This document shows, in pieces, positions 39,553-63,896 of a stretch of 64,000 nucleotides of DNA. The notes under the pieces are model-generated. The model saw only the letters and a program-made list of their open reading frames with translations. It did no database searches and was not told the origin of the DNA. The translations under genes and the position numbers were made by a program. The stretch lies in the NCBI GenBank assembly GCA_039096225.1, contig JBBPEB010000006.1, positions 1,296,501 through 1,360,500 on the forward strand, read 5' to 3'. The stretch comes from Blastocystis sp. Blastoise (taxonomy: Eukaryota; Sar; Bigyra; Opalinata; Blastocystidae). The stretch's first letter is position 1, and each line of letters begins with the position of its first letter.

Positions 39553-39590
39553 TTCTAGAATATTCTAGAACATTCTCGAAACTTCTAGAA
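39553..39590 (+). promoter_or_regulatory. Heat-shock element array 1
   Basis: Eight alternating TTC and GAA triplets, each separated by 2 bp, in perfect 5-bp phase, 47 bp before the preferred start of the acidic gene at 39638. This is the consensus arrangement for heat-shock factor trimers. A CCAAT box lies further upstream near 39427. Confidence 0.8.
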
Positions 39591-39637
39591 TAATAAATTG
39601 TATTATGCATTTTTTTTCTATTTTTATACTATTTATT

Positions 39638-39805
39638 ATGGATTCTCCAAAGCAATTTGCTCCAGATTATAAAGAAGGTAATTGGAAACCTTATGGAAAT
39701 TTTGAAGTTGATGAATTAAGTGATAGTGATTCTGAAATGGATACTATTCAAACTGAAAGTGAGGATGATTACGAAGATTATATCAAGAATTTTATTGATT
39801 TTTAA
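39638..39805 (+). CDS. Small acidic viral protein (55 aa)
   Basis: I chose the ATG at 39638 (MDSPKQFAPDYKEG...) because the frame-compatible ATG at 39605 lies only 14 bp from the heat-shock elements and would add an odd hydrophobic leader. The C-terminal half is strongly acidic with a Ser/Asp/Glu run (DELSDSDSEMD) that looks like a casein kinase 2 target or transactivator-like segment. It is the first plus-strand gene in the left arm and converges on the virion gene at 39880. No family is recognised. Placement directly behind a heat-shock array suggests an early regulatory role (inference). Confidence 0.5.
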   Translation: MDSPKQFAPDYKEGNWKPYGNFEVDELSDSDSEMDTIQTESEDDYEDYIKNFIDF

Positions 39806-39821
39806 ATTAATTTTTATAAAT

Positions 39822-39831
39822 AACAAAACAA
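39822..39831 (-). terminator. TTGTTTTGTT 3'-end motif for gene 39880-41370
   Basis: On the minus strand it lies 49 bp past the stop of the virion gene, in a convergent gap where no promoter is needed. Confidence 0.6.
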
Positions 39832-39879
39832 ATTGTTTAGTTTTTTAAAATAATAATAAATAAAATAAATTAAAATTAA

Positions 39880-41370
39880 CTAATGTTTTCTACGTTTATT
39901 TCTTAATTTTTTATTTTTTGAAATACGTCTTTTTCTACGTAATCCATTACCTTCTTCGAGATCATAAAATACCTCACCATCATCTTCATCAAATGATTGA
40001 AATTCATCATCTTCTTTTTTATTTCGTTTATTATTATTTTCAAGAGTTACATTTTCTACTGGATTAGGAATCGGGGCTACAGGTGTATTATTTGGAGTGA
40101 ATTTATTCGTTATTGCTTGAGACATTGGAACAATATCAGGTAAAGGAGCAGTAGGATCATTCATAAGAGGAATTAAATTTGGAGGATTTGAATCTTCTAT
40201 ATTAATATTATGAATATTTTCTAGAGTTAGAGTATCAGGGGTAGATGAAGGAGTTGATATAACATTATTATTTGTTTCTATTGGATTTTCTGTTTGTGGT
40301 ATTTCTTCTTCTGGATTTTTACCATACCACCAATCAGAAAAACTATTAAATACGTTCTTTGTACCACTAACAATAGAGTTTGCAACTTTTTTAACACCAT
40401 TAACAATTGGTGTTCCTACATTTGTTGCAGTATTAACAACTTTATTAACAAATGTAGGGTTTTCTGCATAGGGAATATAATTTTTATGAAATGTTTTTGC
40501 TTGATCTTCTAAAGATTTAGTTTTGTTAAGTCTTTGTTCTTTAGTATCATTACCTGACATATGAGCAAATCTAAAATAGTTATCAGCTAATAATTTATTC
40601 TTTTTCTTAGCTTCATTATCATCAGTTAATTTCCAATTATCATATAAATTATTTCTATCACTTACAAGTTTTCCTTTAATATCATTGAATCCTTCTTTTG
40701 GATCAACATTAATATCTCTCCACCAATTCTTGAGATCTTTGAATTTATTTGCACCATAATCAACAGCATTACTTATTCCATGAGTGATATTATTAATACC
40801 TCCAGTTAATTTATCAGACACATTGTATACATCACTTACAGTGTGATAAATATTAGAAAATAAATTACCACCTCTAGAATATAAATAACCATCACGATCT
40901 CTTTTAGTAAAATCAATTGCACTATCAATTGTACGAGGATTTAATAATCTTGAATATTTAGCATAATCAGACATATGATTTTGTTTCATATAAGGTAAGA
41001 CATAATCATGAGCATAAATGAGTTTTCTTGTAAAGTTCTTCGGAATTCTACCATCAGGTAATAACCCAGATCCTTCATCTATTGGTTCACTTTCTTCTGA
41101 TTCTTCTAAGGAACTTTGTATAATATCTTGTCTGGTTTCTGATAAATAGGAGAAAAATGGATTGGATGTTGCTCTATTGACCATATTACTTTCAATTTTC
41201 TTAACAGCATATAATGAATTTGGAGCAATAGAATAATTAATTGGATAACGTTCTTCTCCATCAGGAATAGATCCTGGAACAATATAATTTCGATATTCAT
41301 GACCAGTAGCACGATGATTTACGCCTACTAATCCTTTATTTGAAACATTTAAACGAGCACTTTGTATCAT
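39880..41370 (-). CDS. Putative virion precursor protein with basic tail (496 aa)
   Basis: No family is recognised. The N-terminal 100 residues are followed by an acidic stretch and DEGSGLLPDG (Gly100-Gly102). The middle has amphipathic segments (SDKLTGGINNITHGISNAV) and repeated NGVKKVANSIVSG-like stretches; a Pro/Asn-rich linker follows, and the C-terminus is EEGNGLRRKRR plus a run of Lys/Arg. The G-x-G-hydrophobic motifs resemble processing sites for an adenain-type protease, and the basic tail suggests a DNA- or capsid-bound minor virion protein, perhaps analogous to adenovirus pVI or pVII (inference). It starts at ATG 41370. A GC-rich hairpin lies just upstream. Confidence 0.6.
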   Translation of the reverse strand: MIQSARLNVSNKGLVGVNHRATGHEYRNYIVPGSIPDGEERYPINYSIAPNSLYAVKKIESNMVNRATSNPFFSYLSETRQDIIQSSLEESEESEPIDEGSGLLPDGRIPKNFTRKLIYAHDYVLPYMKQNHMSDYAKYSRLLNPRTIDSAIDFTKRDRDGYLYSRGGNLFSNIYHTVSDVYNVSDKLTGGINNITHGISNAVDYGANKFKDLKNWWRDINVDPKEGFNDIKGKLVSDRNNLYDNWKLTDDNEAKKKNKLLADNYFRFAHMSGNDTKEQRLNKTKSLEDQAKTFHKNYIPYAENPTFVNKVVNTATNVGTPIVNGVKKVANSIVSGTKNVFNSFSDWWYGKNPEEEIPQTENPIETNNNVISTPSSTPDTLTLENIHNINIEDSNPPNLIPLMNDPTAPLPDIVPMSQAITNKFTPNNTPVAPIPNPVENVTLENNNKRNKKEDDEFQSFDEDDGEVFYDLEEGNGLRRKRRISKNKKLRNKRRKH

Positions 41371-41395
41371 TTTAAATTAATAAAACTAGGGTCAC

Positions 41396-41432
41396 GCCGC
41401 AGGTCCAGTGCCTAACGGCCCCGGACCGCGGC
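41396..41432. other. GC-rich hairpin upstream of gene 39880-41370
   Basis: GCCGC-A-GGTCC pairs with GGACC-GCGGC, with a GC-rich loop, 26 bp before the start codon. It marks the junction between viral sequence and the host-type repeat on its right. Possible roles: leader RNA structure, terminator for transcription from the right, or a junction relic. Confidence 0.55.
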
Positions 41433-41439
41433 TGCATGA

Positions 41440-41599
41440 AAATATGTGTGTTTAGTTTTTTAGTATCCTTCATTATTTTTATATATTGTTTATTGTTTAT
41501 TGTTTATTATTTATTGTTAATTATTTATTTATTATTAATTATTTATTATTTATTTATTATTATTTATTATTATTTATTATTAATCATTTATTATTTATT
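41440..41599. other. AT-rich microsatellite-like spacer
   Basis: Tandem TTTATTATTTA-type repeats leading into tRNA-like element 5. No gene. Confidence 0.5.
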
Positions 41600-41667
41600 T
41601 CTTATACTCTACATGGAGAGTTATAATCAATAAATGATTGTAATCAGGTTCAATTCCTGATATAAGA
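41600..41667 (+). ncRNA. tRNA-like cloverleaf element 5, inside the provirus
   Basis: TCTTATA/TATAAGA is a perfect 7-bp acceptor-like stem. CTCT/AGAG is the D-like stem with loop ACATGG. TATAATC/GATTGTA is a 7-bp central stem including one G-T pair, with 7-nt loop AATAAAT. TCAGG-TTCAATT-CCTGA is the T-arm. Confidence 0.6.
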
Positions 41668-42099
41668 ATCTATTATACTTTTTCAATAATATATAAAAAT
41701 AAAGAAGAAATTATTTTAAATAAAGAACAACGTTTTGAGTTATATTCATTATAAAAAATTATTTTCTAAATCAATTTTGACATTATTAATAATTATACAA
41801 CTGTTTAAAGCTTTTTTTGAGTTTTAAAGTCAATAATTTTAGAAATGAGTAACAATGTGAAGAACTTTGAAGTATTTTTAATTCATAAAATTCATTTAAA
41901 TAAGCATAATAAAATAATTTAAACTCATTTTAATAATTTTTAAAAGAATTTTGAAGTTTTAATCATAACAAAGTCAACATTCATTTTCACTTTGACAACT
42001 AAAACATTATTTAAAAAGTTAATATTTTTATATTCGTCTCAAATAATGATTTTAATTATAAATAACTCAAAATAGTAACTTTTAAAGAGACTTTACACA

Positions 42100-43500
42100 T
42101 TCAAGATCCACTGTATCAAAATAATTTCTTTCAGTCTTTTGATATAGTATAGAGTTTATCATACTATTTATTAAATAAAAGTAAATGTTTTGAATCTCTG
42201 TCTTAAAGACCCTTTTTGACACATTATGAAAAGTTGACACACTTAAACTCATTTTTAAATGCTAATATTTACACACTTTACTTAATAATACCATAGCTAC
42301 ACATTGGTCATCACTTTAAAACATTTTATAAACCTTTTGCATTTGCTCATTTACTTCGACCAAAATATTTTCGTCCCTTCTTTTGACATAATATAGAGTG
42401 TGTGGTCTAGTTATATGAAAGTGAGGGGGAATTTTGAATCTCGTCCTCTAAGTCAATCATTTTCACATTTTTTAAAATTAAGACCCTTAGAGTTGATTTT
42501 TTACGTTAATTTTTCTACAGTGTTCCAAAAACACGATTTTGGATAAACTGAAGTAAAAATGTTTTTTCAATAACTCTCACAACCCTTTACACATCCACTC
42601 TCTAAAAATAGTTTTTGCTATATTTTTGATATGTTGTAGAGTGTCTCTTAGTGTATACTGAACAATATCTCGTTTCTTAAAACTCTCATTTTATGACTCT
42701 CTTTGAACATATTTTTACTAATTGAAAGACTTAAACACATTTTTAAAAGCTAATATTTACATAGTAGACTTTATATGACTCTATAAGCACATTAGTCAAC
42801 ACTTTAGACTTTTTAAAGACACTTTACCATTTGCTCATACACTTTGATCAAAATATTTTCGTCCCTTCTTTTAACATAATATAGATCATACAGTCTAGTT
42901 TAATGAATAAACACTCTTATTTTGAATCTCGTCCTCTAAGTCACTCATTTTTACATTTTTTTAAATTTAAGGCCCTTAGAGTTGATTTTTTGACTCAATT
43001 GTTCTACAGTGCACGAAATTCACGATTTTAAATAAACTGAAGTAAAAATAAATTTTAAATAATAGTCACAACACCTCACACATCCACTCTCTAAAAATTA
43101 TTTTCTTTGAACTTTTGATATGTTGTAGAGCTACTACAGCTGTACACTAATTAATATCTCTAAATTTTTTATTCATAGTCTAAGACTATGTTTTACACAT
43201 TCTTTTGAATTTGACAACCTTAAACTATTTATTTAAAGCTCTTATTCATAAAATAGACTTAATACATGATTCTATACACATATGCAAACCCTTTTACTTT
43301 TTAAGACACATTTTGTCATTTGGTCATACACTTTGACCATCATAATTTTGACTCTCCTTTTAACATAGAATAGAGTTGTAAGTCTAGTTTATTAAATAAA
43401 AGTCATTATATTGAATCTTATCCTCTAAGACCACTTAATTCACATTTTTCAAAATTGTCACTTTTAAACTCGTTATTTTAAGACTTTGTTTTAACTATAG
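42100..43500. repeat. Satellite of about 244 bp, six divergent units
   Basis: TTTTGATAT/ACATA...TAGAG phrases recur at about 42138, 42383, 42627, 42869, 43114 and 43356, a spacing of 242-245 bp. Alternate units are most alike (for example TTGAATCTCGTCCTCTAAGTCA at 42430 and 42930), giving a 488-bp higher-order period. It is non-coding and interrupts the viral gene block. Confidence 0.75.
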
Positions 43501-44107
43501 TAGTTTGAGGACCTATCAATTACAATACTGTAATATTAGTCGATTATAAGAAGATCGAAGAAAATATCGATCACTCAAAAATCGTCCTCAGGAGCTGAAA
43601 ATCGCTACACCTAGGTTTTTGGACCTCCTGAATCAGAATATGATGTCAAAATAAGAATCTAAATTTGACCGTTAAGGCCTCACGTGTTCAATATGAAAAA
43701 GTATTAAAAAATAGATAAATATAAAGAATAAACACGGATAACGTATATTGTGGGATTGAGAAAAAATCAAGTTTACCCCATGTTTATTTTCCAATTGTCT
43801 GGTCAACAATTTTTATCGGGGTCACCCCAAAGAGCCAATCAAAAACGACTCAAAAATCATGTTTTCTGTTCTTTTATTAATATCTTTTTAATTATAAATA
43901 ACATCGCTTAACCAAATATACGGTGCACAACTACACGTTATATCCTATTGAACTGTGTTTCAACCAAAAGTTAACTTCCCGTAAGTTTAGAGGAGTTGTG
44001 GGTACAAACTTGAGTATATAGTAGCCAATCAAATGAATTTTCCAAAAACTGACCAATGGGAATTTTTTTGCCTATTCTCATATATATAGTAATGATAATT
44101 ATGAATT
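43501..44107. other. Intergenic region with CCAAT boxes
   Basis: No gene seen. CCAAT boxes occur near 43833, 44021 and 44051, with an imperfect dyad around ATCGGGGTCACCCC near 43817. It may hold promoter elements left from the provirus or the inserted repeat. Confidence 0.35.
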
Positions 44108-44111
44108 TTAA

Positions 44112-44121
44112 AACAAAACAA
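44112..44121 (-). terminator. TTGTTTTGTT 3'-end motif for gene 44169-44966
   Basis: Located 48 bp past the stop, with no gene starting downstream for more than 2 kb, so it cannot be a promoter for a next minus-strand gene. Confidence 0.6.
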
Positions 44122-44168
44122 AAAAAAGAAATTATTTATATTATATAGTTAGTATATTAATAGTATCA

Positions 44169-46133: not shown

Positions 46134-47171
46134 TTAATGAAAAGAAGGATAACCAGAATAATGTTTTTTATTTAAATAAGGATTAAAAATGCGTCGTTGA
46201 CTATCTTGTATGATTTGATCTTGTATGATTTGTAAGATGGATTCTTTAGGTTTATCTTTTTCATCTCGTTCAATACCTTTCAATGAGACTTCTTCTTCAA
46301 CAGGTAAAAACTTCTTCATTTTCTTTTCATATGTAGATATATGTTCATTAGGACGTTTAATACCACTACCTGATACTTCACCTTGTTCTTCTCGTTTCTC
46401 TTTTTCACTATCTTCTTCTGTCCATTTCCTTTTCTTTACCATCTTATATACATTCTGTTTACTACCACAATCAGGATTAGTCCATATTGTTAAATCATCA
46501 CTACCTTGTTTTAACATAAAGAATTGATGTGGATCATTCATTAATTCTTCATCTGTAAGAATTTCATTTAGATTTGATGGCATAATCTTTAATTTATCTG
46601 GTAAGAATCCAGGATCACGTTTTAAGATTTGACTATTAATAAAGAAATGAGATACTTGACTTAATATAGATTGATTCGTGACATCTGTATGACTTTGAAG
46701 ACATATAATAGCATTCTGTTTATAATGACGACCTTTAGATAATATAGATACAATCAATTGTTTGGTTTGTCTAGATAATGGATAGATATCATCCAATACA
46801 ATAAAATTATGTTCTGGTAATTTATATGTATTGACTAATTCATCAACAGTTTTAATCTTTTTAAATTTATCATCTACAGAATCATACCATTTATAATCAA
46901 TTCCAGCATGTTCACAAATATCTTGAAAGGATGTATAACATTCATTCTTATTGGATGCATCAGGACAAATTACTGTGACTTGTTTATATTTATTTTTAAG
47001 ATCCATAGAACATAAGAGGTTCACAGTTAAGAAAGATTTTCCTGAGAATGTTCTTGCAATAATCAATATGAATTTTGATTCATATGTTTTATGATGGGAT
47101 TTTCCATATTTAAATTCTAAGACTCCACATCCTTTATGTGTTTCTTTTAATGGATTTATTTTATTCACCAT
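46134..47171 (-). CDS. Viral DNA-packaging ATPase (A32/FtsK-HerA type)
   Basis: The P-loop is at residues 39-46 (ARTFSGKS, with Ala where Gly is usual), Walker B at 123-128 (FIVLDD), and a GRHYKQNAIICLQSH stretch follows with the Arg-His...Gln pattern typical of A32-like viral packaging ATPases. This would translocate viral DNA into the capsid. Beyond the core (about residue 240) there is a charged tail with VSGSGIKRPNE, another G-x-G-hydrophobic motif. Total length 345 aa, slightly above the usual core. Start at ATG 47171, between the virion precursor and the penton-like gene. Confidence 0.8.
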   Translation of the reverse strand: MVNKINPLKETHKGCGVLEFKYGKSHHKTYESKFILIIARTFSGKSFLTVNLLCSMDLKNKYKQVTVICPDASNKNECYTSFQDICEHAGIDYKWYDSVDDKFKKIKTVDELVNTYKLPEHNFIVLDDIYPLSRQTKQLIVSILSKGRHYKQNAIICLQSHTDVTNQSILSQVSHFFINSQILKRDPGFLPDKLKIMPSNLNEILTDEELMNDPHQFFMLKQGSDDLTIWTNPDCGSKQNVYKMVKKRKWTEEDSEKEKREEQGEVSGSGIKRPNEHISTYEKKMKKFLPVEEEVSLKGIERDEKDKPKESILQIIQDQIIQDSQRRIFNPYLNKKHYSGYPSFH

Positions 47172-48003: not shown

Positions 48004-49227
48004 TTAATTGGTTGCACCATCTCTAACAAATTTAACAAATATAAAATGAGCATATAAAGTATAAGTACCACTAGTAATATTTGCACCATTATATTCAGTT
48101 AATAAGGAGATATTAACTTCACAACCACTACGAGTATTGACATCAACAACACTTGAAATAGGGAATATATAAATAGGTTGTTCATACCACTTTTCACCAT
48201 TTAAAGGAGATTGAGGATGACTATTACATCTCCAAGTATTATAAAGCATAGCATTAGGAATAATTTGTGATGGATTCGTTGTTTTATATGTAGTAGGGAA
48301 ATCCGTCTTTGGTAAGATATTTTGACCACCAATTTGGAATTGACACATCTTCAATAATTCAGTCTTAATAGGAATCATACTCTTCTCTTGAGTTGTAAAA
48401 TATAGCATACAGTAATCAGGTACGAAAACAACACTTCTATTGGATAAGAATTGTTGTGGAGTTGGTTTACCTGCTGTTGTGAATGTTTGTGAATAAACAG
48501 GTGTAGTAAATGCAGATATTTGACAATTATTAGGAATACATTTAATTAAAGCACGTGGATCATTACCAAAATTAATATCATAAATTTGTTGAAGATGAAT
48601 ATAAACACGATCAAAAGTTAATGCAGTGATTTTAGTGGTTCCAGTAAATAGATTCTTTAAATAATTTGTAACGAATTGCATCTTCAAAGATTTTACTTTA
48701 ATAGCACAATCAAATGTACCAAGACCAGTAATAAGAGATAAAGGAATAATAACTTGAGCTTTAGTAGAACTTTGCATTCCAGAAATACTACTTAATGTTG
48801 TATTATATAAGCATTCTGTCATACTATACATAGATTTATCAATTTCATCTTTACTTAATTCTTTAATAGTAACAAATTTTCTTGCTTTACTGGATTCAAT
48901 AGATGATTCAGAATAATTAATAAGAATATCTTGACCCGTAGGAGATACAAACGTAAGATCTGTAGTAATTTTATCAATAATACTATAGATATTAGAATGT
49001 TGTACAACAGAACTAGTTGTAGCTGCATTTGTTGTAATATTGAAATTCAGTTCTAAGAATGAATTGCTGAAATCAATAAAAGGACTATCCACTGAATTAT
49101 ATAAGAATTCAAATGGATAAGGTTGATTTAATAAATCCTGACTTGTAGAAACTAGAATAGGAATTTGTACAGGTTTAATAGTTTGATTTGCCTTTGAAGG
49201 TAAGAATTGTCTTGGGAATCCTTCCAT
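48004..49227 (-). CDS. Major-capsid-like protein 1 (407 aa)
   Basis: Paralogous to the next gene upstream. Shared blocks in the same order: SPFIDFSNSFLELNFNI, HSNIYSIID, ARKFVTIKELSK..IDKSMY, IPLSLITGLG, FVPDYCMLYF, ILPKTDFPT, QPIYIFPISS and a C-terminal FVKFVRD. The early 'ID..NS.L.L' strand followed by an Asn-x-x-x-Ile-Ile-Asp block resembles the N-terminal jelly roll of polinton/adintovirus major capsid proteins. It would form the icosahedral shell. Start at ATG 49227. Confidence 0.6.
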   Translation of the reverse strand: MEGFPRQFLPSKANQTIKPVQIPILVSTSQDLLNQPYPFEFLYNSVDSPFIDFSNSFLELNFNITTNAATTSSVVQHSNIYSIIDKITTDLTFVSPTGQDILINYSESSIESSKARKFVTIKELSKDEIDKSMYSMTECLYNTTLSSISGMQSSTKAQVIIPLSLITGLGTFDCAIKVKSLKMQFVTNYLKNLFTGTTKITALTFDRVYIHLQQIYDINFGNDPRALIKCIPNNCQISAFTTPVYSQTFTTAGKPTPQQFLSNRSVVFVPDYCMLYFTTQEKSMIPIKTELLKMCQFQIGGQNILPKTDFPTTYKTTNPSQIIPNAMLYNTWRCNSHPQSPLNGEKWYEQPIYIFPISSVVDVNTRSGCEVNISLLTEYNGANITSGTYTLYAHFIFVKFVRDGATN

Positions 49228-49402: not shown

Positions 49403-50875
49403 TTAAATATCACGTACACTACGTACAGCAATCATATGTAATGTATAAGGATGCTTCTCATTTAGTTCAGTATTAATATGTTTATAAATACCAGCATGAG
49501 ATGCTACACTATAAGAAGCACCAGTATCAGGTGTCCATATTTTAGTAGTTTCATTATATGTACATGTATATCCATCAGGAACAGTGGATGAATCAGCATG
49601 TCCATATTCAATATCATGGACATCTAGATTACAATCAAAATTCATTTCTATACCACTATCTGATTGGATATTCATTAATGCTTTAGTTGGAATAATATAA
49701 ATAGGATGTTTAATCCATTCATCATATTTAAGAATAGTTTCAGGATTTGAATTATCAGCCCATAAACAATATAAATTTTTATTAGGACAAGATAAACTAG
49801 CAGTTTCTTCATTATTGAAGACATGACCTTTAGTAGTAAGATTATGATAATACATTTGAGTAGGGAATTCAGTTTGAGGGAACATTTGAACATCACCAAT
49901 CAAACAACTTTGATATTTAGGCCATACAGATGGACTAGCTATATTACTAATAGTTGTTGAACTATAACCATTTGTAAACCAGTATAATATATATTCAGGT
50001 ATAAATGGTAAAGCTCTATTGATATTGAAATGATCACTAGTTATTCTTGTATTTTGATAATCGACTTGAATACATGTAGGTATAGTTTTATATAATTCAT
50101 TCGTTTGGAATTGAATATCTTTATAAGTCATTAAATTCATAGTAGCTGATTCCAATTCAAATGTCTTAAACCATTTTTCATCAGTTAGATGTAACCATTG
50201 TGTTGATAATTTAGCACCACCATTCTTGAAATAAATACTCATATTATTATCAATTAAAGATTCAATTGTACTCGTTCTAAATAGCATATTGAAATGTTTA
50301 GTTAATATTAAAGAATCTCCATCAACACCTAAACCACTAATGAGATATAAAGGAATAGCAATATGAATAGATTGTTTTGGATGTGCACGTATATAACGAA
50401 TAGAATTCAATTCATAAGTATCTGCAGATAAATCTTCACCATACATAGATTTTTCTAAATCATTCTTACTGATATCTTTTAATAAAATCATCTTACGACC
50501 ACGTGAAGCATGTGTACAATTTTCTTCATATTTCAAAGCACGATCAGATCCATCAGGTAATGTATAAACCATTTCAACATCAGTGGAATCAATAATAGAA
50601 TAAATATTAGCTTTCTGAACTAATTGATCCAAGAAATATTGACATAATTGATCATAAGTGAAACTAACAGAAGTACCTGTTTCATCTAAATAAACAGAAA
50701 CTGGTCCTTTTTTATCTGTAACAGTTGCTTTGACAGTAAGATCCAAATAGGATTGATTGAAATTGATATAAGTATTATCCACATTAGTCCAATGATATTG
50801 AAAGATATAAGGACTTGATAGAATATCAGTATCACTTTGAATAGGAATATTATCTTTAATTCTTAAGATTCTCAT
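49403..50875 (-). CDS. Major-capsid-like protein 2 (490 aa)
   Basis: Contains the counterparts of every block in the neighbouring 407-aa protein: TYINFNQSYLDLTVKA, KANIYSIID, GRKMILLKDISK..LEKSMY, IPLYLISGLG, FIPEYILYWF, MFPQTEFPT, HPIYIIPTKA and a C-terminal AVRSVRDI. It has extra insertions, notably near residues 60-80 and in the last 80 residues. Two full-length paralogues in tandem suggest a two-component shell or a specialised vertex/facet protein. Divergent to the 812-aa gene across a 94-bp AT-rich promoter gap. Start at ATG 50875. Confidence 0.6.
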   Translation of the reverse strand: MRILRIKDNIPIQSDTDILSSPYIFQYHWTNVDNTYINFNQSYLDLTVKATVTDKKGPVSVYLDETGTSVSFTYDQLCQYFLDQLVQKANIYSIIDSTDVEMVYTLPDGSDRALKYEENCTHASRGRKMILLKDISKNDLEKSMYGEDLSADTYELNSIRYIRAHPKQSIHIAIPLYLISGLGVDGDSLILTKHFNMLFRTSTIESLIDNNMSIYFKNGGAKLSTQWLHLTDEKWFKTFELESATMNLMTYKDIQFQTNELYKTIPTCIQVDYQNTRITSDHFNINRALPFIPEYILYWFTNGYSSTTISNIASPSVWPKYQSCLIGDVQMFPQTEFPTQMYYHNLTTKGHVFNNEETASLSCPNKNLYCLWADNSNPETILKYDEWIKHPIYIIPTKALMNIQSDSGIEMNFDCNLDVHDIEYGHADSSTVPDGYTCTYNETTKIWTPDTGASYSVASHAGIYKHINTELNEKHPYTLHMIAVRSVRDI

Positions 50876-53967: not shown

Positions 53968-55764
53968 ATGCAATCAACAGGTTATTCAGATAAAGATTGT
54001 GAAGAATTCTTTACAAATTGTATAGATCAATTATTACATTGGAAGAAAATACAATTATCAACAAGTATAAATTGGAAGAAATGGATCAAGACAATATGTA
54101 AGAAATTTCGTAATGAAGAACGAATTCAAATAGATGATATGGAAGAACCGTTCTTTTGTGTAGAAGTGTTAACAGATCCATTTCAATTTCAAAATGTTAT
54201 GCAACATACACAAACAGAAGCTCCTGGACAACAAGGTGGATTATCCAATACTACTGTAGCTAATTATATGCAAATGATTACTTATATAATGAAGAATATA
54301 TCTATTTGTACAGATGATGAAGATATCATTAATTATAAAGCATTTACTCCACAAAATATAAAGAAATGGGAACATTTATGGGGTTCTTTACAAATTGATG
54401 CTACTTATTCAAGACATTATGAAATCACTCAGAAAATTATTAATTGTGAAGCTGATTGGGGAGAAATCATTAATATCACCAAAAAGAATTATTTAGAGAA
54501 TCCTAATGATTTATATTATGTGAATAGTTATTTATTAGTTTTAACTTATGATACATTATGTGCTCGTAATGATTATAATGATTGTGTAATCTATACTCGT
54601 GGTCAACAAATTCCTTTATCCTTAAGAAGAACAACTAATTATATTGATTTAAATACTTTGACTATTCATGTGAATGATACAAAGAATCGATTTGAAATTG
54701 GTAAGAATGAATATCCTACTTATCAATATTTATCAGAAGAATATTTGAATGTCTTAGCTAGATCCTTACGTTTATTTCCAAGACATTATTTATTTGTTAC
54801 TGAGAATGGTGGTAAAGTACGTGATTTGAAATTTGGTGATGAATATATAAAACCCCATTTAGGCTGGATTTATAAAACACAACAGAATAATTCTTTAATT
54901 AATGGTTGTGATATTATAAGACATTTATTTGCTCAATATTATTATAGATTATCAAGAGAAGCACAATTCCAACATAATGATTCAGAACACGAATCTAAAG
55001 GTGTAGAACTCTTTGAAAATTCGATTATGAAGATGTTACATAGTCAATCAACACATATGGAAAATTATATATCTCCTTATTTATCTTCTCATTCAACTAA
55101 ATTGCAAGATTTAGATAATAAAACAAGAACATTTCATATTGATATGAATAATATTACTTATACAAGAGAAATTAATCAATTGAATAAATTATTATTTTTA
55201 TGTAAACGATTTAATGATCGTATAGAACAATATGAAGAAGACTATGAAGATGTATTTGGTAAAGAGAATTTCAATATGAAATCAGAATCCATATTAAGTA
55301 GTCTAGAACAATATTCATCAGATAATGATACTATAATGATTACATTAAGATATTATAAAGATCTATTAAAGCATCATTATCCAGATAAAACAGATTTAGA
55401 AAATGAATTACCTGTAGGATGTTCATTAGAATCTGAAGAAGTTCCAGAGAATTCTAGAGATCGTTATAATCGTTTTATACGTAATAAACAATTATTACCT
55501 GATCATTTACATAATAATACAACGGATTCAGAATTAACGAATACTCAAGCATCTCTTATGCAACAGAATACTCAAGATGAAAACTCTACACCTATAGTTA
55601 TGAATAATTCAGATACTTATGCATTACGTAGTCTTTCTACTATGCCTCCTTTAGAGCCTATTCATCGTGGTCATGGTTTATGTAGAAAACATAAAGGTAA
55701 TGCATTCTTTAAAGTCAAAGTCCCTAAAAAACATTTTCATGGAATTCAATTTAAATTTTATTAA
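53968..55764 (+). CDS. Tyrosine recombinase (integrase-like) with C-terminal extension (598 aa)
   Basis: The catalytic core runs from about residue 180 to 370: first Arg in CARNDYNDC (about R200), Lys in HVNDTKNRF (about K239), Arg-His in CDIIRHLF (R318, H319), His in MLHSQSTH (H358), and the nucleophile Tyr in MENYISPY (about Y367). The first position of the usual H-x-x-R box is Asp, a substitution seen in some eukaryotic and viral recombinases. The enzyme would integrate or excise the viral DNA. About 225 residues follow the core, ending in HRGHGLCRKHKG and a Lys/His/Phe-rich tail, with the G-x-G-hydrophobic motif found in the virion proteins. Start at ATG 53968; convergent to the primase-helicase. 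Confidence 0.7.
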   Translation: MQSTGYSDKDCEEFFTNCIDQLLHWKKIQLSTSINWKKWIKTICKKFRNEERIQIDDMEEPFFCVEVLTDPFQFQNVMQHTQTEAPGQQGGLSNTTVANYMQMITYIMKNISICTDDEDIINYKAFTPQNIKKWEHLWGSLQIDATYSRHYEITQKIINCEADWGEIINITKKNYLENPNDLYYVNSYLLVLTYDTLCARNDYNDCVIYTRGQQIPLSLRRTTNYIDLNTLTIHVNDTKNRFEIGKNEYPTYQYLSEEYLNVLARSLRLFPRHYLFVTENGGKVRDLKFGDEYIKPHLGWIYKTQQNNSLINGCDIIRHLFAQYYYRLSREAQFQHNDSEHESKGVELFENSIMKMLHSQSTHMENYISPYLSSHSTKLQDLDNKTRTFHIDMNNITYTREINQLNKLLFLCKRFNDRIEQYEEDYEDVFGKENFNMKSESILSSLEQYSSDNDTIMITLRYYKDLLKHHYPDKTDLENELPVGCSLESEEVPENSRDRYNRFIRNKQLLPDHLHNNTTDSELTNTQASLMQQNTQDENSTPIVMNNSDTYALRSLSTMPPLEPIHRGHGLCRKHKGNAFFKVKVPKKHFHGIQFKFY

Positions 55765-55808: not shown

Positions 55809-58800
55809 TTAATTTGGTATAGCATATAAAGTATTATCTATTAAAATTCGTTTTGTTGATGACGTATTATGATATTGATCTTCACTATAAACAATTTCTT
55901 CTTTTTTAGATAAACAATTGGATAAACAGAATAAATCTGTATCTACACATTCATTATAAGTATTATCAATCATTAAACCACAAATACCAATAGCATTCCC
56001 TCCCTTATAAAAATTTGAAGTATGTTTTCTATGAATATTCACAATATCTATAGAATTAAATGTATCTTTACTACTTAAACAACCAAATAAAGCATTTGTA
56101 AATTTATCTAAATCTTTCTTAATCGTAAATTGATTATTATTATTCACTTTCTTATAACTATTAAAAATATCTTCAATAGTAACTACATTCAAATAATAAG
56201 GATCTATAGTAATATGGTTATCAACAAAAGATTTCAAATCATATCCTTCTGTACTACGATCAAAGAATCGTTTCTTACATTCACTTATATGATATTCATT
56301 ATCTAATTCATGCATATCTAATTGCATACTAGAATAGAAATAATTACTTACTAGATAACTAAAGATAATTGAACGATTCTGATAGAATTTATCGGATAGA
56401 GTATAATCCATTTCATAATGATTTGGTTTCAATCTCTTTTCTACTGTCTGTTTACGTTTCGGTAAATTATGATCTACATAATCTTCATATAAATTAGCAT
56501 TACCAGGAGGGAAATAACGACAACATGAAGGTAAGAAACACACTCTTCTTTCAATAGGACCAGCATTCACAGCTGTAGGTTGGATATTACTTGTCATAAA
56601 TAAAGTACCCGTGAAATGAACTTTTGTAAATATATTACTGAATAATTTACGAGCACTAGCACCTTCTTTCTTTTCTGCTATTTCTTTAAAGACTTTAGAA
56701 GAGAATGGATTGAATGTTTTCTTTCTACCAGTAACATCTTCTTCTATTAATTCATTCATATAATACATAGTCTTATTAGACATATCTACAATCTTAGGAG
56801 CTATAGATGTTTCTTCTAAATTATCTGGATTTACTATAATACATTGATTACTACCTACAATACGAGAAATTAAATCAGTTGTTATTGTTTTACCATTACT
56901 ACCTGTACTACCATATAATATATAAGAAACTGTTTTCTGAGTATTGACATAGAAAGCAGTGGTTAGGATACGTAACATAATACTTTCATATTTCTTATCG
57001 AATTCACAATATCTTGCAATATGTTGTTCAAATAATTGGATAATATCTTTCTGTTCATTATTAATATTCCAACTTACATTAAATTCAGTATCAATTAATA
57101 AATCTTCAAACACCATATCTTCTTTATGATATGGTTGGATATAATATTGTCTAGGATCTTCTTCTGTTGATTCTTTTGGATATAAATAACCAAGTTGTGT
57201 ATAGATAACACGTTCTTTATGAACCATATACGTATCTAAATATTCTTTATAAGATTTACCATAAGTCTTCAAATAACGATTCAACCATTCTTTATAATGA
57301 TATTCATTAGTAACAGAAGCAGACATTATTTTATCAACTATTTTTTGATGTTGTTCATTCTCTTTGGAATATAATCTTGATAGTTTGAATTTCTCTACAA
57401 TCGATTTCATAAATGTAGTTATTTTGGTTTCAAAGAAATTAATATCATAATTATTCTTACAACGTCTTAAGATATTATATTCATCAAATGTATATAAGAT
57501 AAAATTATCTTTATCTAATATAATAGATACAATTTCATTAAATTCTAATAATTGAAATAACATAACTAATGTTTGTGAATCTACAAGATTAAAGGATTGA
57601 ATACATTCTAAAATAGACATAAATATGAAATCATTATCATCATCTTTATTAAATAATTTATTATCCATTAATATCTTCAAAATATAATTATTCGATAAAT
57701 GAGTAGGATCAACTTGTATATGATTCCATGTAGATTCAATTACATCATCACTTCGATCATGACCATAACGTAATGAATAATTTTTAAATAATTCTAATCC
57801 TCTTGTTGTATTACAAATCTGTTTTGCTGCACAACATAATTTATACCAAGTATTATGGGATTCAAAATAATTCATATCTTCAATAGAACCAATCAATAAT
57901 AAATATCGTTCTAATAAAGCTTCTTTAGATGCTGTAGTATCCAATATAGTATCTGTAGAAATCAACATAGGAATATCTTTAATATCTTGTATAGAACATA
58001 ATATAGTACGTGAACAATTATTTAATCTTGCATAATAACGTTTATAACGTGAATATTGTTTTAATTTAGAAAAGATAATAGGATTAATAATATCACTTAT
58101 AAGATCATCTTCATTCTTATAATTCAATAATGTTTTGAAATAATAATGTTCATCGATTTTGCCTTCTATTTTCTTCCATGATTTATTGGTATATTCTTCA
58201 TATAATTTATAAGTAGATGGGGAATTATCTTTACTACAACCAAGAAACATACAACCATTATTCTTTCTGGGTTTACCAATAACATTATAATCAATGAATT
58301 CTTTTATATCTAAATTATTCATTTTAAATAAATCAACCAATTTGGTATTCAGAATCATACTATTATATAAGAAAAATAAATAATCACCATTTACAAACCA
58401 ATTTGTATATATATGAATTCCCCATGAATAATGTATTTCATTATGAACTGTCTTCTTATTCACTTCTTTCTTTGTATACACAAGCGAAATAAATTCTTGA
58501 TTATAATAATGAATACAATGATTACACATTTCTTCTATAAATTCATGAATAAAAGAATCTGTTAGAAAAGAAAAATCATTTGATATTTGGTGATAATCTA
58601 AATCAAACCATAATCTTCTATAATTAGTTGATGTATTACAAGGAGTACAATCAATATAATGTAATAATTCTTTTTGATTTTGGTAATTAGTAAATAGACT
58701 TTTATAAAATGGTAATGGATTTGGTATAATAATTTCACTATGATTATCTTTTGAGTTATCATGATTAAAGGAACCAAAAGTATAAACAAAATGAATTTGT

Positions 58801-58811
58801 GAATTTTCCAT
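55809..58811 (-). CDS. Primase-helicase: AEP primase plus SF3 helicase (1000 aa)
   Basis: The N-terminal archaeo-eukaryotic primase domain has D-x-D in WFDLDYH (D70, D72), an S/G-x-H-type motif in WGIHIYT (H133) and a conserved Lys/Tyr segment at about 177-204. Residues about 319-365 resemble a PriCT-type domain. The C-terminal superfamily 3 helicase has Walker A GSTGSNGKT (634-642), Walker B MYYMNE (682-687), sensor MTSN (739-742) and an Arg pair in IERRVCF (755-756). This is the D5-like replication protein of many viruses; it would prime and unwind viral DNA. Two strong heat-shock arrays lie directly upstream. Start at ATG 58811. Confidence 0.85.
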   Translation of the reverse strand: MENSQIHFVYTFGSFNHDNSKDNHSEIIIPNPLPFYKSLFTNYQNQKELLHYIDCTPCNTSTNYRRLWFDLDYHQISNDFSFLTDSFIHEFIEEMCNHCIHYYNQEFISLVYTKKEVNKKTVHNEIHYSWGIHIYTNWFVNGDYLFFLYNSMILNTKLVDLFKMNNLDIKEFIDYNVIGKPRKNNGCMFLGCSKDNSPSTYKLYEEYTNKSWKKIEGKIDEHYYFKTLLNYKNEDDLISDIINPIIFSKLKQYSRYKRYYARLNNCSRTILCSIQDIKDIPMLISTDTILDTTASKEALLERYLLLIGSIEDMNYFESHNTWYKLCCAAKQICNTTRGLELFKNYSLRYGHDRSDDVIESTWNHIQVDPTHLSNNYILKILMDNKLFNKDDDNDFIFMSILECIQSFNLVDSQTLVMLFQLLEFNEIVSIILDKDNFILYTFDEYNILRRCKNNYDINFFETKITTFMKSIVEKFKLSRLYSKENEQHQKIVDKIMSASVTNEYHYKEWLNRYLKTYGKSYKEYLDTYMVHKERVIYTQLGYLYPKESTEEDPRQYYIQPYHKEDMVFEDLLIDTEFNVSWNINNEQKDIIQLFEQHIARYCEFDKKYESIMLRILTTAFYVNTQKTVSYILYGSTGSNGKTITTDLISRIVGSNQCIIVNPDNLEETSIAPKIVDMSNKTMYYMNELIEEDVTGRKKTFNPFSSKVFKEIAEKKEGASARKLFSNIFTKVHFTGTLFMTSNIQPTAVNAGPIERRVCFLPSCCRYFPPGNANLYEDYVDHNLPKRKQTVEKRLKPNHYEMDYTLSDKFYQNRSIIFSYLVSNYFYSSMQLDMHELDNEYHISECKKRFFDRSTEGYDLKSFVDNHITIDPYYLNVVTIEDIFNSYKKVNNNNQFTIKKDLDKFTNALFGCLSSKDTFNSIDIVNIHRKHTSNFYKGGNAIGICGLMIDNTYNECVDTDLFCLSNCLSKKEEIVYSEDQYHNTSSTKRILIDNTLYAIPN

Positions 58812-58897: not shown

Positions 58898-58945
58898 GAA
58901 GCTTCTAGAACCTTCTAGAACATTCAGGAACATTCTAGAACATTC
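58898..58945 (-). promoter_or_regulatory. Heat-shock element array 2
   Basis: Alternating GAA/TTC triplets in 5-bp phase across about 48 bp, with one variant spacer (CAGG), 87 bp upstream of the primase-helicase start. Confidence 0.8.
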
Positions 58946-58979: not shown

Positions 58980-59027
58980 TTCTAGAACCTTCGAGAACCT
59001 TCGAGAACCTTCTAGAACCTTCTAGAA
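58980..59027 (-). promoter_or_regulatory. Heat-shock element array 3
   Basis: Ten consecutive perfect TTC/GAA triplets at 5-bp steps (TTCTAGAACC and TTCGAGAACC units). With array 2 this makes two clustered arrays upstream of the primase-helicase. Confidence 0.85.
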
Positions 59028-59137: not shown

Positions 59138-59761
59138 TTAAATTTCAATTGGTTCTTGACTATTAATATATGTACATGAATGAGGCCATCCATTTTTATC
59201 ATATAAAATACCATCCCAGAAATACATTTGTTTTGAAGGATCTCTTTTAATCTTGTTAATACTCTTAGCATGAACAACTTCATAAGAATAAACTTTACCT
59301 TTTTCATCATAAAGAAATCCATCTTCCATATGGAATTTCATAATATCAAAATCATCATCTTTAGAATTCGAATGTTCTTTAGAATCTTCAGAACATAAAA
59401 TAGTAGTTCTATCACTTTCTAAAAGATCTTCAGTATTGATAATATCTTGAATATCTTGTTCTTCATTAAGTTGTTGAGTATAAATATCAGCAGCGAATTC
59501 TTCATAATCTTCAAGACCTTTAATAACCGCGTTTATACGTTTTAAAGCTGATCTATAGTTTTCGACTTCGAAAGAAGCAAGACGTTCTTTAGATTTTGCA
59601 ATACCCAATAGATTCTTTTCTCTATTCAATTGAGACTGATGTAAATCAATATCACGAAGAACATTCTTATGAACTTCAACAGCCTTCTTAGAATTCTTTA
59701 GAAGTTCCATACGAACAGTTTGAAGACATTTACGGGAATCAGCAGAAAGATTAAATTGCAT
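59138..59761 (-). CDS. Coiled-coil viral protein with DG-LYD repeats (207 aa)
   Basis: The frame is open further upstream to 59806 but only with a non-ATG codon, so I start at ATG 59761 (MQFNLSADSRKC...). Residues 1-110 are heptad-like helix rich in Lys/Glu/Leu. The C-terminal part has two related units, MEDGFLYDEKGKVYSY and FWDGILYDKNGWPHS, each of the form DG-[FI]-LYD-x-x-G. No family is recognised. A four-triplet heat-shock array lies 112 bp upstream, grouping it with the replication genes. Confidence 0.55.
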   Translation of the reverse strand: MQFNLSADSRKCLQTVRMELLKNSKKAVEVHKNVLRDIDLHQSQLNREKNLLGIAKSKERLASFEVENYRSALKRINAVIKGLEDYEEFAADIYTQQLNEEQDIQDIINTEDLLESDRTTILCSEDSKEHSNSKDDDFDIMKFHMEDGFLYDEKGKVYSYEVVHAKSINKIKRDPSKQMYFWDGILYDKNGWPHSCTYINSQEPIEI

Positions 59762-59872: not shown

Positions 59873-59890
59873 GAATGTTCTAGAAGGTTC
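59873..59890 (-). promoter_or_regulatory. Heat-shock element array 4 (short)
   Basis: GAA-TG-TTC-TA-GAA-GG-TTC: four triplets in phase, plus degenerate half sites at 59845-59865, upstream of the coiled-coil gene. An ATTGG (CCAAT) box follows at 59896. Confidence 0.65.
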
Positions 59891-60710: not shown

Positions 60711-60720
60711 TTGTTTTGTT
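60711..60720 (+). terminator. TTGTTTTGTT 3'-end motif for gene 60160-60687
   Basis: Located 24 bp past the stop. Confidence 0.6.
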
Positions 60721-60754
60721 TATTTTTTTTTTAAATTAATTACACAAAGTTTAA

Positions 60755-60850: not shown

Positions 60851-60886
60851 AATGTTTCCATTAGATTATTCAAGTGTTCTTTTTTT

Positions 60887-60934
60887 TTCTAGAACCTTCT
60901 CGAACATTCTAGAACCTTCTCGAACCTTCTGGAA
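60887..60934 (+). promoter_or_regulatory. Heat-shock element array 5
   Basis: Ten TTC/GAA triplets in perfect 5-bp phase, ending 77 bp before the start of the ssDNA-binding candidate at 61011. Confidence 0.85.
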
Positions 60935-61010
60935 AATTGATTCATTTGAAAAGAATATCGTAAAATATTAGTATTAAAATACTTATATTTTTACTAAATA
61001 CTTAACTAAA

Positions 61011-61604
61011 ATGTCTTCAACTGAATTTAAGAAACCTACTATTCTTGATACTTCTAACTTTAATTTACAATGGGATGACACCAAAGAAAATGCTGTTCTT
61101 TTAAATAATAATCATCGTGTATGTATTTCTACTGATGCTACACCATGTTTATTTGGTTATATTGTTACACGTGATAAATGGACTTTAATAACGATTGAAG
61201 ATGATAATCAAGTATTCTTAACTGCTTATAAAGAACTTTATCGTAAATTATGTGAATTATGTCCTGATGGTGATATTGTTAATTTTGTACGTATGGATAA
61301 TGGTAAATATAAGATTACAATTAAAGTACCTATTAATGCATCGAAGAATGTTACTATTGATATTACTGATAAAAGAGATAAGAAGATTAATATCGGTAAA
61401 GATCCTAAGTTAACTTACGAAGAAATACGTGAAAAGTATATTCCACCAAATACGTTATGTAAAGTATTATTTACAATACATGGTATTCATCGTTATAATA
61501 ACAAGTATTATATTGGTTTATATGCACGTTCTATTAAAGTATTCGATAAATCTACGAAGAATACTAACAGCAATGATACTATTATTGATTTAACTAAATT
61601 ATAA
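61011..61604 (+). CDS. Possible ssDNA-binding (OB-fold-like) viral protein (197 aa)
   Basis: A beta-rich protein with alternating hydrophobic/basic strands. The C-terminal stretch PPNTLCKVLFTIHGIHR followed by a Y-Y-I-G-L-Y-A-R strand resembles the last strands of OB-fold ssDNA-binding proteins of DNA viruses. Size fits. The strong heat-shock array directly upstream, shared with the primase-helicase, supports a replication role. The family call is inference. Start at ATG 61011. Confidence 0.5.
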   Translation: MSSTEFKKPTILDTSNFNLQWDDTKENAVLLNNNHRVCISTDATPCLFGYIVTRDKWTLITIEDDNQVFLTAYKELYRKLCELCPDGDIVNFVRMDNGKYKITIKVPINASKNVTIDITDKRDKKINIGKDPKLTYEEIREKYIPPNTLCKVLFTIHGIHRYNNKYYIGLYARSIKVFDKSTKNTNSNDTIIDLTKL

Positions 61605-61639
61605 ATTTTTAATGTTAAATTTATTTTTTATTAATATAT

Positions 61640-61649
61640 TTGTTTTGTT
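61640..61649 (+). terminator. TTGTTTTGTT 3'-end motif for gene 61011-61604
   Basis: Located 36 bp past the stop, followed by TATAAATAATTT as at 53945. Confidence 0.6.
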
Positions 61650-61679
61650 TATAAATAATTTTATAATTGAAATAAAAAA

Positions 61680-63308
61680 ATGCAAAGTTGTATCTTAGGA
61701 ATGCCAAGTCCTGGTACTTTTGGTATGAATTTAATTTCAACTGGAAAAGAATATAGGCGATATAATACACAACCATTACATAAAATGGATCAATATAATC
61801 CAATATTTCATGAAATAGGTCCAAATTCATCTATGCCTGTGTCTACTTTAGAAAGTAAAGAAATACATGATGGTAAAGAAGATGATTATGTAGATCGTTC
61901 TAAAACATTTGGTAAAGATGCTGTTCCACAAGGAAATGGTGCTTTAATTCGTGCTAGAGCAGCAGGTAAAGGTGTAATGAAAGCAGCTGGTCCAGAAGAA
62001 GATAAAATAGATGGTGAAGATCGTCAATATAAAGTATTAAATCCATGTAAACCAAGACGTAAATCTGGTAGAGGAATTATTCCAAATAAATCAGAAATCA
62101 ATAAATTAGAGAATAATCAAGGTTCTGGTATTGGTGATGCAATTAAAAATAAAGTAAAAGATATGTATCAACGAAATGTATTAGATATAAGAGATGCTAT
62201 TGTAGATAAAAAAGCTAATAGAAAAGCTCGTGATGCATTAGCTATTTTAACTCAATATGTTGGTGATGGTCATCATGATCTTGATGATGAATTCAAAAGA
62301 TTCTATGAACATAAAATAAAACGTGGTGGAAAGATTCCTATATCTGTTGCTTCAGCAATTATGAATGCAATTAAAAATAAGAAAATGATTAAGAATCCAA
62401 AATTAAGAAGAATGTTAAGACCCTCTATTATACCAAAATATATAGATTTAGATTCAGCTCAAAGTGGTGATGGTATATTAAGAGTAAAAAGAGGTGGTGG
62501 ATTCTGGAGCGGATTAATGGATTATGCACCAGCTCTATTAGGTGTAGTTGATAAAGGTATGGATTCTTTTGCTAAAGGTAGAAAAGCTTATTATGATACA
62601 CATTTGGCACAACAATCAAGTGAATTAAATGATATGGAATTTGAAATGGAAAAATTAAAACGTCAACAAGCATTAAATGAAATGAAAAAGCAAATAGGTT
62701 CAGGAAATACAATAAATAAAATGTTTGAAGGATATTATGATGTAGCTGATGAAATGCAAGATGCTCTTGATGAAGATGATAGACTACATCCACAACCCGT
62801 TGTTCAACCTCCACCACCTCCACAACAACAAGTTGATCGACCTCCTCAATCTCAACCTCCTCAACCTTATAAACCCATGTCTCGTGATGAACAAAGTTAT
62901 TATTATAAGATTTATGGTTTCCCTCAAAATGATAAAGAAAAAGTCGATAGAAAATGGAAAGAAGATGAAAGGGATAAACGAATAGCTGCAAGAAGAGCTA
63001 AACGTAGAGGTTATGGTGGTCGAGTTAAATTAAGTAAAGCAGAATTCTTAGAACGAATGAGAAGAGGAAAAGAAGCTAAAAAGAAAAGAGGTGGTGATTT
63101 GAATCCATTAGTATCATTTTATACAGATTTTATAATACCTGCAGGAGTGGCACGAAAAAAACGTAAAATCCAAGAGGCTGATTTAAAACAATTACAAATT
63201 ATAAAACAGAAAAGAGATAATAATGAAACATTAAATGCAGGTGACGAATTGTTTTGGAAAAAAAAGAAATATATGTTATCAAAAAACTCAGGGGAGGGGA
63301 TCTGGTAA
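61680..63308 (+). CDS. Large virion precursor with multiple Gly-rich processing-like sites (542 aa)
   Basis: No family is recognised. Candidate cleavage-like motifs are SGRGIIPNK, NQGSGIGDAI, QSGDGILRVK, IGSGNTINK and the C-terminal NSGEGIW, with RGGG runs between. The middle has a hydrophobic segment (GGGFWSGLMDYAPALLGVV), then a long helix, a Pro/Gln-rich linker (PPPPPQQQ) and a basic region. The gene lies 32 bp upstream of the adenain-like protease, which could process it. A core or minor capsid precursor is plausible. Start at ATG 61680. Confidence 0.6.
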   Translation: MQSCILGMPSPGTFGMNLISTGKEYRRYNTQPLHKMDQYNPIFHEIGPNSSMPVSTLESKEIHDGKEDDYVDRSKTFGKDAVPQGNGALIRARAAGKGVMKAAGPEEDKIDGEDRQYKVLNPCKPRRKSGRGIIPNKSEINKLENNQGSGIGDAIKNKVKDMYQRNVLDIRDAIVDKKANRKARDALAILTQYVGDGHHDLDDEFKRFYEHKIKRGGKIPISVASAIMNAIKNKKMIKNPKLRRMLRPSIIPKYIDLDSAQSGDGILRVKRGGGFWSGLMDYAPALLGVVDKGMDSFAKGRKAYYDTHLAQQSSELNDMEFEMEKLKRQQALNEMKKQIGSGNTINKMFEGYYDVADEMQDALDEDDRLHPQPVVQPPPPPQQQVDRPPQSQPPQPYKPMSRDEQSYYYKIYGFPQNDKEKVDRKWKEDERDKRIAARRAKRRGYGGRVKLSKAEFLERMRRGKEAKKKRGGDLNPLVSFYTDFIIPAGVARKKRKIQEADLKQLQIIKQKRDNNETLNAGDELFWKKKKYMLSKNSGEGIW

Positions 63309-63340
63309 AGAGTAAAGATGAAAAACTTATTCAAAATTCA

Positions 63341-63874
63341 ATGAATTGTGATAATCCTATTATATCTGATAAAACTCGTCATGTTACTCCTAGATCCCCT
63401 GATAATTTCAAACAAACTCTATCTCAATATTGTAATATACCAAATTCTTTAATATCTCAATTATATAATTATGCTTATTTAAATAAACCTACCTCTTCTG
63501 TTGCTTGTGATCGTGCTGAAAATGTTATGAAACAATTAAATAAAACGAATTCTCAATCTTATAATTATTATAATAGTTATGATGATTTTGAACAAAATAT
63601 AGATCAAGATCAAACTAAATTTAATATGATCTTTCATGAAAGTCCTAGTGATCCTTATAATGGTCATTTTGAAGCTGTTATTTATAATGGTAATAAAAAT
63701 ATAGAACACTATTCATCATTAGGAAATAAACCTACTTTTTCAAAATCATTTATTCAAAATCATAATATTCAATATAATCCTATTCAACACCAAAAAACTA
63801 CAAGTAATGCAAATGGTTGCTTTTATTATTCTTTACTTTATTTACTTTCTAATGGAAATCTTATGCCTTGTTAA
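63341..63874 (+). CDS. Adenain-like (C5/C48-type) viral cysteine protease (177 aa)
   Basis: The frame is open back to 63254, but the first ATG is 63341, just after the stop of the virion precursor. The catalytic pattern is present: His in NGHFEAVIYN (H109), the HYSSLGNKPT segment at the usual Asp/Glu-Ser-x-Gly site, Gln in IQHQKTTS (Q151) and Cys in NANGCFYYSLL (C160). The acidic residue appears replaced. Adenovirus-type proteases mature virion proteins inside the capsid, and several neighbours carry suitable G-x-G sites. Confidence 0.65.
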   Translation: MNCDNPIISDKTRHVTPRSPDNFKQTLSQYCNIPNSLISQLYNYAYLNKPTSSVACDRAENVMKQLNKTNSQSYNYYNSYDDFEQNIDQDQTKFNMIFHESPSDPYNGHFEAVIYNGNKNIEHYSSLGNKPTFSKSFIQNHNIQYNPIQHQKTTSNANGCFYYSLLYLLSNGNLMPC

Positions 63875-63878
63875 AACA

Positions 63879-63896
63879 TTCTAGAATATTCTAGAA
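63879..63896 (+). promoter_or_regulatory. Heat-shock element array 6 (short)
   Basis: TTC-TA-GAA-TA-TTC-TA-GAA, four triplets in phase, 64 bp before the start of the truncated gene at 63961. Confidence 0.65.

Follow-up and report, generated by a model that had tools for sequence, protein, structure and literature searches.

What wakes an integrated small DNA virus in its protist host? The question is still largely open, and the trigger described in the available part of PMC8547959 is a co-infecting giant virus that acts through shared promoter motifs. It arises again at a locus of Blastocystis sp. Blastoise, in a stretch of 64,000 nucleotides (contig JBBPEB010000006.1, positions 1,296,501 to 1,360,500; this whole stretch is called the window throughout), where a provirus starts at window position 38689 and ends at L059:3104, about 2.6 kb past the window, giving a total length of about 27.9 kb. 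It belongs to a family, here called A, of about 20 near-identical integrated proviruses in this genome, and arrays of heat-shock elements (HSEs) stand before part of its genes. We argue below that these arrays are probably binding sites for the host's heat-shock factor (HSF) and act as promoter elements of non-structural genes; their sequence suggests host stress as a wake-up cue for this virus-like element.

To locate the arrays, we searched for runs in which GAA and TTC triplets alternate strictly every 5 bp, and counted those of at least three units. Each of the six clusters reported in the original prediction was recovered at its coordinate: 8 units at 39553-39590, 5' of a 66-amino-acid (aa) acidic open reading frame (ORF); 10 units each at 58898-58945 and 58980-59027, respectively 86 bp (proximal) and 168 bp (distal) from the start of a primase-helicase gene; 4 units at 59873-59890, 111 bp from the start of a 207-aa ORF; 10 units at 60887-60934, 76 bp from that of a 197-aa ORF; and 4 units at 63879-63896, 64 bp from that of a 51-aa ORF. 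The 64 kb of the window hold no other array of at least three units, and its host part (1-38689) holds none at all. The original prediction in fact understated the placement of arrays, as two more lie just right of the window, one of 5 units 95 bp from the start of a 124-aa ORF and one of 10 units 88 bp from that of a 311-aa recombinase-like ORF. An HSF site requires three or more nGAAn units, inverted and phased at 5 bp; the arrays have 4-10 units each in the window and 4-14 in the primase region of the 20 copies.

Such runs are far more frequent than chance would give. In the proviral part of the window (38690-64000), 6, 6 and 4 arrays of at least 3, 4 and 5 units were observed, against means of 0.525, 0.035 and 0 in 200 dinucleotide-preserving shuffles of the same interval, which never reached five units; the comparison with shuffled sequence that had been proposed from the first thus came out clearly in favor of a real excess (6 versus 0.035 at four or more units). 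The reversed control pattern (AAG/CTT) gave two three-unit sites in the proviral part and none longer. Across the 33.3-Mb genome, the four-unit pattern occurred 370 times per strand versus 7 for the reversed pattern, and the seven-unit pattern 175 + 175 times versus 0 + 0. Twenty window-like copies would be expected to supply about 360 seven-unit matches over both strands, and 350 were observed; all 100 of these that were listed lie in or beside family-A copies.

The arrays are also unevenly distributed among the genes. An array lies at most 150 bp upstream of 7 of the 20 ORFs, namely the acidic, primase-helicase, 207-aa, 197-aa, 51-aa, 124-aa and recombinase-like ORFs, and with structural and non-structural labels assigned by us this corresponds to 7/10 non-structural versus 0/10 structural ORFs (Fisher p 0.003). 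The earlier statement that capsid-like, ATPase, penton-like and precursor genes are array-free is therefore borne out: in all ten ORFs labeled structural, the 150 bp upstream are empty of arrays. Three ORFs labeled non-structural likewise have none (140, 598 and 175 aa). The distance of 50-120 bp between array and start codon given in the original prediction holds for four of the six arrays and fails for the distal primase-helicase array (168 bp) and the acidic ORF, where the gap is 14 bp, or 47 bp if translation begins at the second ATG. At the left end of the element lies a terminal inverted repeat (TIR; 38689..39590, 902 bp), which over 903 columns is 99.4% identical to L059:2203-3104 in reverse complement. 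Its inner edge is the end of the first array, and a counterpart array is found at the right end. The inner edges of both TIRs are thus at or in an HSE array, so that the two terminal genes share one kind of promoter.

Does the host possess the factor that would read these arrays? We found two HSF genes in the host genome, at C4 and C25. The product of the first has a complete DNA-binding domain, which finds solved HSF domains (HSF2, E 4e-20) among its matches; its top match (E 4e-21) is titled "Putative transcription factor". The second is apparently split by introns and carries a SFVRQLN segment identical to that of the first, which we take to be part of the recognition helix. The host's own hsp70 and small-hsp promoters contain the same GAAnnTTCnnGAA element in 3-4 units: a perfect element of this length lies 90-305 bp upstream in 9 of the 22 hsp-like loci. 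These nine are all among the 12 canonical hsp genes, a class set by family score after the result was known, and comprise 3 of the 5 full-length hsp70/BiP genes and 6 of the 7 best-scoring small hsp genes. Together with the two HSF genes, this agrees with the original claim that the layout matches consensus HSF trimer sites. Capsid promoters and random host DNA had been named as the places in which equally frequent arrays would speak against that claim; the capsid side has none, and 89.5 kb of host control DNA, mostly the host part of the window plus the loci of non-canonical hsp-like genes, yielded one site of at least three units.

We then examined how the arrays are preserved among the family-A copies, of which the genome holds 20 as counted by the primase-helicase gene (99-100% identity) or the capsid-like gene (94-100%) and 21 as counted by the right-end recombinase-like gene (99-100%). 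Both primase-helicase arrays and the four-unit array of the next gene are present in 20/20 copies, with 8-10 units in the proximal and 8-14 in the distal array. In the 18 of 20 copies that were parsed by a regular expression on the flanks (L009 and L016 were missed, though their arrays are intact), none of 326 core triplets was broken; the proximal array came in 13 distinct forms and the distal one in 8, which differed only in their spacers (TA, TC, TT or CT after TTC; GG, TG, GC or TA after GAA) and in unit number, the latter in steps of two units (10 bp). Intact cores beside varying spacers and unit numbers are the pattern expected of selection on the core with turnover of the array by slippage, and homogenization between copies may contribute. 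For genes other than those of the primase region, the arrays among the matches listed come mainly from two copies on C3 and the window copy. The 407-aa capsid-like gene, for its part, falls into two classes, with 13 copies at 98-100% and 7 at 94-95%; primase and recombinase copies of full length stand at 99-100%, and two capsid-like classes beside a uniform primase and recombinase are a sign of recombination between proviruses.

How, then, might the arrays work? A long phased HSE array would act as the upstream activating sequence in the promoters of the primase-helicase gene, the recombinase-like gene and several small ORFs. Host HSF trimers would bind the long arrays cooperatively, and HSF, whether basal or activated by stress, would switch on the recombination and replication genes; the particle genes would follow through another type of promoter. 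We infer that the array-bearing genes would be induced by heat and expressed early. Beyond this lies a broader proposal, which we hold tentatively and at somewhat less than an even chance: that family A is switched on by the proteotoxic-stress response of its host, in the manner of an SOS-induced prophage but in a eukaryote, and that related families in the same nucleus have exchanged the promoters of their replication genes, each being tuned to a different host signal.

Several observations weigh against the reading of the arrays as stress-responsive HSF sites. HSF binding also occurs without stress, so that a "stress sensor" does not follow from an "HSF site". Two of the eight arrays have only 4 units, and 13 of the 22 hsp-like loci (3 of the 12 canonical genes and all 10 others) lack a perfect upstream element. 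The primase frame is interrupted in some family-A copies, and hence not every copy can be active. Finally, the genome contains two diverged families that share the core genes, B (L021-L023) and C (L024-L026), with primase-helicases at 40% (B) and 38% (C) identity, or at 40-45% in the search that gave the 20 family-A copies. Within the primase match plus 1.5 kb on each side, the three B loci have no array of at least three units, and the three C loci have only one three-unit site each, in the coding region and none upstream; primase-type viruses of Blastoise can evidently do without arrays.

The survey of relatives suggested in the original prediction is accordingly divided, positive for the family-A copies and negative for B and C at the loci examined. 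Nor was an array found in a further stretch of about 11 kb that adjoins one B primase gene and whose right half may be host DNA. The four-unit matches listed, apparently in contig order and complete to C14:1336058, include none within the C13 and C14 copies of B, and the seven-unit matches listed include none within the C15 copy of C. The absence of arrays from the examined B and C sites makes the wiring lineage-specific; it is, to judge from these loci, a property of family A or one that has been lost in B and C. Both families have direct repeats of their own, of other sequence, upstream of the primase-helicase gene: those of B (L021:1130-1400) have a period of about 52 bp and contain TGACG and TTCCGGAA, and those of C (L024:1270-1390) have a 70-bp period and contain CGTCAGGTTTGATTCTCGATTTAGGATTT. 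These are possibly sites of other host factors. Outside family A, seven further capsid-like genes were found, at 52-54% identity.

The alternative that survives best is a version of the HSF reading itself, in which the arrays bind host HSF as strong constitutive activators working on basal HSF, and do not sense stress. The proviral arrays reach 14 units versus the 3-4 of host hsp promoters, and HSF binds cooperatively, so that longer arrays should be better occupied when HSF activity is low. Stress induction would be a natural consequence of HSF binding, yet constitutive use of basal HSF would account for the sequence just as well: both versions predict the same sequence, and nothing in it speaks against the constitutive one. 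We regard it as a serious, if rather unlikely, alternative.

Could the arrays instead be bound by something other than HSF? They might be iterons of a replication origin, or a viral protein might bind them. Their clustering near the primase-helicase gene and at the inner edges of the TIRs, possible places for an origin, would fit this, and the upstream repeats of the B and C primase genes would suit this role as well. However, eight arrays stand close before ORF starts across the whole element, their sequence is that of the host hsp promoter element, the homologous B and C primases have no such arrays upstream, and none of the 17 proviral ORFs of the window that were searched matched an HSF domain in Pfam. 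We consider this explanation improbable. More improbable still is a virophage-type promoter read by a co-infecting giant virus. In PMC8547959, the late-promoter motif of CroV, TCTA, is described for mavirus-like elements, with different motifs for the other types. TCTA is indeed present within TTCTAGAA, but the spacer variants TTCGAGAA, TTCTCGAA, TTCAAGAA and TTCAGGAA lose it and retain GAA/TTC, strict 5-bp phasing is left unexplained by a giant-virus model, and the capsid-side genes are without arrays. Least probable of all, functionless 10-bp tandem repeats spread by slippage would account for the 10-bp steps between copies, but not for 326 unbroken core triplets with variation confined to spacers and unit number, nor for the placement before non-structural ORFs or the same element in host hsp promoters. 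Iterons, a TCTA promoter and neutral repeats each explain less than host HSF sites do.

HSEs occur in other mobile DNA too. In the same genome, a separate transposon, mariner-like by eye, has a five-unit HSE before its transposase ORF (two copies, L061 at C3:801700-803700 and L062 at C13:842300-844200), and its 27-bp HSE occurs seven times exactly and twice with one mismatch; HSE wiring is thus not unique to the virus. Elsewhere, DIRS-1 of Dictyostelium discoideum, likewise a mobile element, resembles the provirus in having heat-shock promoters within inverted terminal repeats (PMC2685390, in part). DIRS-1 is, however, a retrotransposon with its promoter in the terminal repeats, whereas the provirus has eight arrays over separate promoters and particle-side genes without them. 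Zuker 1984 and Cappello 1984 are, by their titles, said to be sources on the DIRS-1 heat-shock promoter. Similarly, the Arabidopsis long terminal repeat (LTR) retrotransposon ONSEN is activated by host HSFs (PMC12859917), and the Cryptococcus LTR retrotransposons TCN3 and TCN12 have one or two putative HSEs in their LTRs (PMC12810828); unlike the provirus, these elements have neither capsid and replication gene classes nor long arrays in the portions of their descriptions consulted.

Among DNA viruses, there is a close likeness to mavirus and the endogenous mavirus-like elements (EMALEs) of Cafeteria, which are likewise integrated small protist viruses with TIRs, in some cases a tyrosine recombinase, and type-specific promoter motifs. 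Those motifs are attributed to giant-virus transcription in the passages available (PMC8547959), whereas the provirus carries the motif of a stress factor of its host, and on part of its genes only. Polinton-like and virophage-like elements of protists (Bellas 2023; PMC10120064, in extract) are 15-30 kb long and often combine a primase-helicase or polymerase with a tyrosine recombinase or integrase; the main text of that paper does not contain the words Blastocystis, promoter, heat or stress, and the capsid of the present element is known as a candidate only. HSEs in mobile elements are already known (DIRS-1, ONSEN). Among the PMC papers that our searches listed, none described promoters driven by HSEs in a polinton-like virus or a virophage.

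What the proviral sequence points to is a transcription factor of the host, and one whose stimulus, heat, is easy to apply. Since transient transfection has been published for Blastocystis, in the laboratory strain ST7 B (PMC6395660, as excerpted), induction of an endogenous polinton-like virus is directly testable. If the reading is true, virus activity in a very common protist of the intestine would be tied to temperature or stress in the gut.

Do the particle genes have a promoter motif of their own? The motif TGTTTTGTT, which occurs 14 times in the window part of the provirus versus 0.86 in shuffles, was at first taken for a late-gene promoter, as several structural genes have it 9-99 bp upstream. 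This was rejected, since 14/14 occurrences are downstream of a stop codon on the same strand, and the idea of two promoter classes was withdrawn with it; a k-mer count revealed no late promoter. The Blastocystis polyadenylation element is given as TGTTTGTT in the part of PMC4159000 consulted. Either TGTTTTGTT or, once, TGTTTGTT follows the stop codon by 14-77 bp in 16/20 proviral ORFs, and one of the two is present at most 150 bp after the stop in 6/13 host genes. TGTTTTGTT is best read as a polyadenylation element of the Blastocystis type, and its position at proviral stop codons indicates that the provirus seems to use host 3'-end signals too.

We next consider the gene content of the element. 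The hallmarks with search support are the TIRs, the packaging ATPase and the primase-helicase. The packaging-type ATPase (46134..47171, minus strand), which has no HSE, matches PHROG 2666 (terminase large subunit, E 1.2e-10); DEAD and FtsK matches remained under the Pfam cut-offs, and no solved structure was matched by sequence. The primase-helicase (55809..58811, minus strand) matches PHROG 1156 (DNA primase, E 2.4e-9) and, below the cut-off of that model, TIGR01613 (E 9.1e-9), with no significant Pfam match and no solved structure. The 311-aa recombinase-like ORF at the right end, beyond the window, reached E 0.084 against Phage_integrase, below cut-off, and matched no solved recombinase by sequence. 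Its R156, K197, R265, H288 and Y297 are conserved in a relative of 42% identity, and presumably sit as in the catalytic pattern of tyrosine recombinases. By gene content, a polinton-like or virophage-like element is plausible.

None of the capsid, penton, precursor, protease and single-stranded DNA (ssDNA)-binding labels was confirmed by any search. The protein labeled capsid-like in the original prediction (48004..49227, minus strand; no HSE) is a candidate only: it has 87 database matches, four of them named Blastocystis sp. Blastoise, and the profile of this 407-aa protein gave no credible match to a solved structure, the single one being at E 0.89. A second capsid-like paralogue (49403..50875, minus strand; no HSE) is 28% identical to it. 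The 197-aa ORF (61011..61604, plus strand) had been proposed as ssDNA-binding, a label left unsupported by the lack of a significant family match in any search run. Pfam matches were also lacking for the acidic ORF (39605..39805, plus strand), the 207-aa ORF (59138..59761, minus strand), earlier labeled coiled-coil, and the 598-aa ORF (53968..55764, plus strand), which has no HSE and resembles a tyrosine recombinase by eye only. The 177-aa ORF with a protease label (63341-63874) has no significant family match, and the 51-aa ORF, which starts at 63961 and extends beyond the window end, shows a hydrophobic stretch by eye. The outer ~112 bp of the TIR (window 38695-38811), of the same sequence at both ends, form a potential long hairpin (z -5.3), perhaps serving as a viral telomere or as a resolution site. 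Between two structural-side genes, window 41400-44150 consists of 2.7 kb of direct repeats with a period of ~244/489 bp and no open stretch of more than 85 codons.

In protein searches, the primase-helicase, capsid-like and recombinase-like proteins matched records of Blastocystis sp. Blastoise at 99, 93 and 100%, and a dictyostelid host, suggested by base composition, was rejected. Outside the Blastoise genome, public metagenome data yielded relatives of the capsid-like protein, among the 87 matches given above, and two primase relatives, at 42-43%; IMG/VR yielded none of the primase or the capsid-like protein at the sensitivity used. The seven-unit pattern occurred in 9 IMG/VR contigs versus 13 for the reversed control, so HSE arrays are not enriched there. 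ORFs were examined in three of the nine contigs (L068, L070 and the first 6 kb of L073); all three look phage-like by eye, with the array inside a long ORF in L068 and L073 and outside ORFs of at least 100 aa in L070. An identical seven-unit GAA/TTC array is present at L065:609-641, L070:2697-2729 and L072:5877-5909, in L072 on the other strand.

In the host part of the window, an ORF for a MULE-type transposase (639 aa) with a SWIM zinc finger lies at 18882-20801, and a tRNA-Ile gene at 36114-36184, some 2.5 kb before the provirus begins. Strand asymmetry is extreme at 21000-28000 and 33500-36500, where GC skew runs to +0.79 and -0.79 and AT skew to 0.62 and -0.49.

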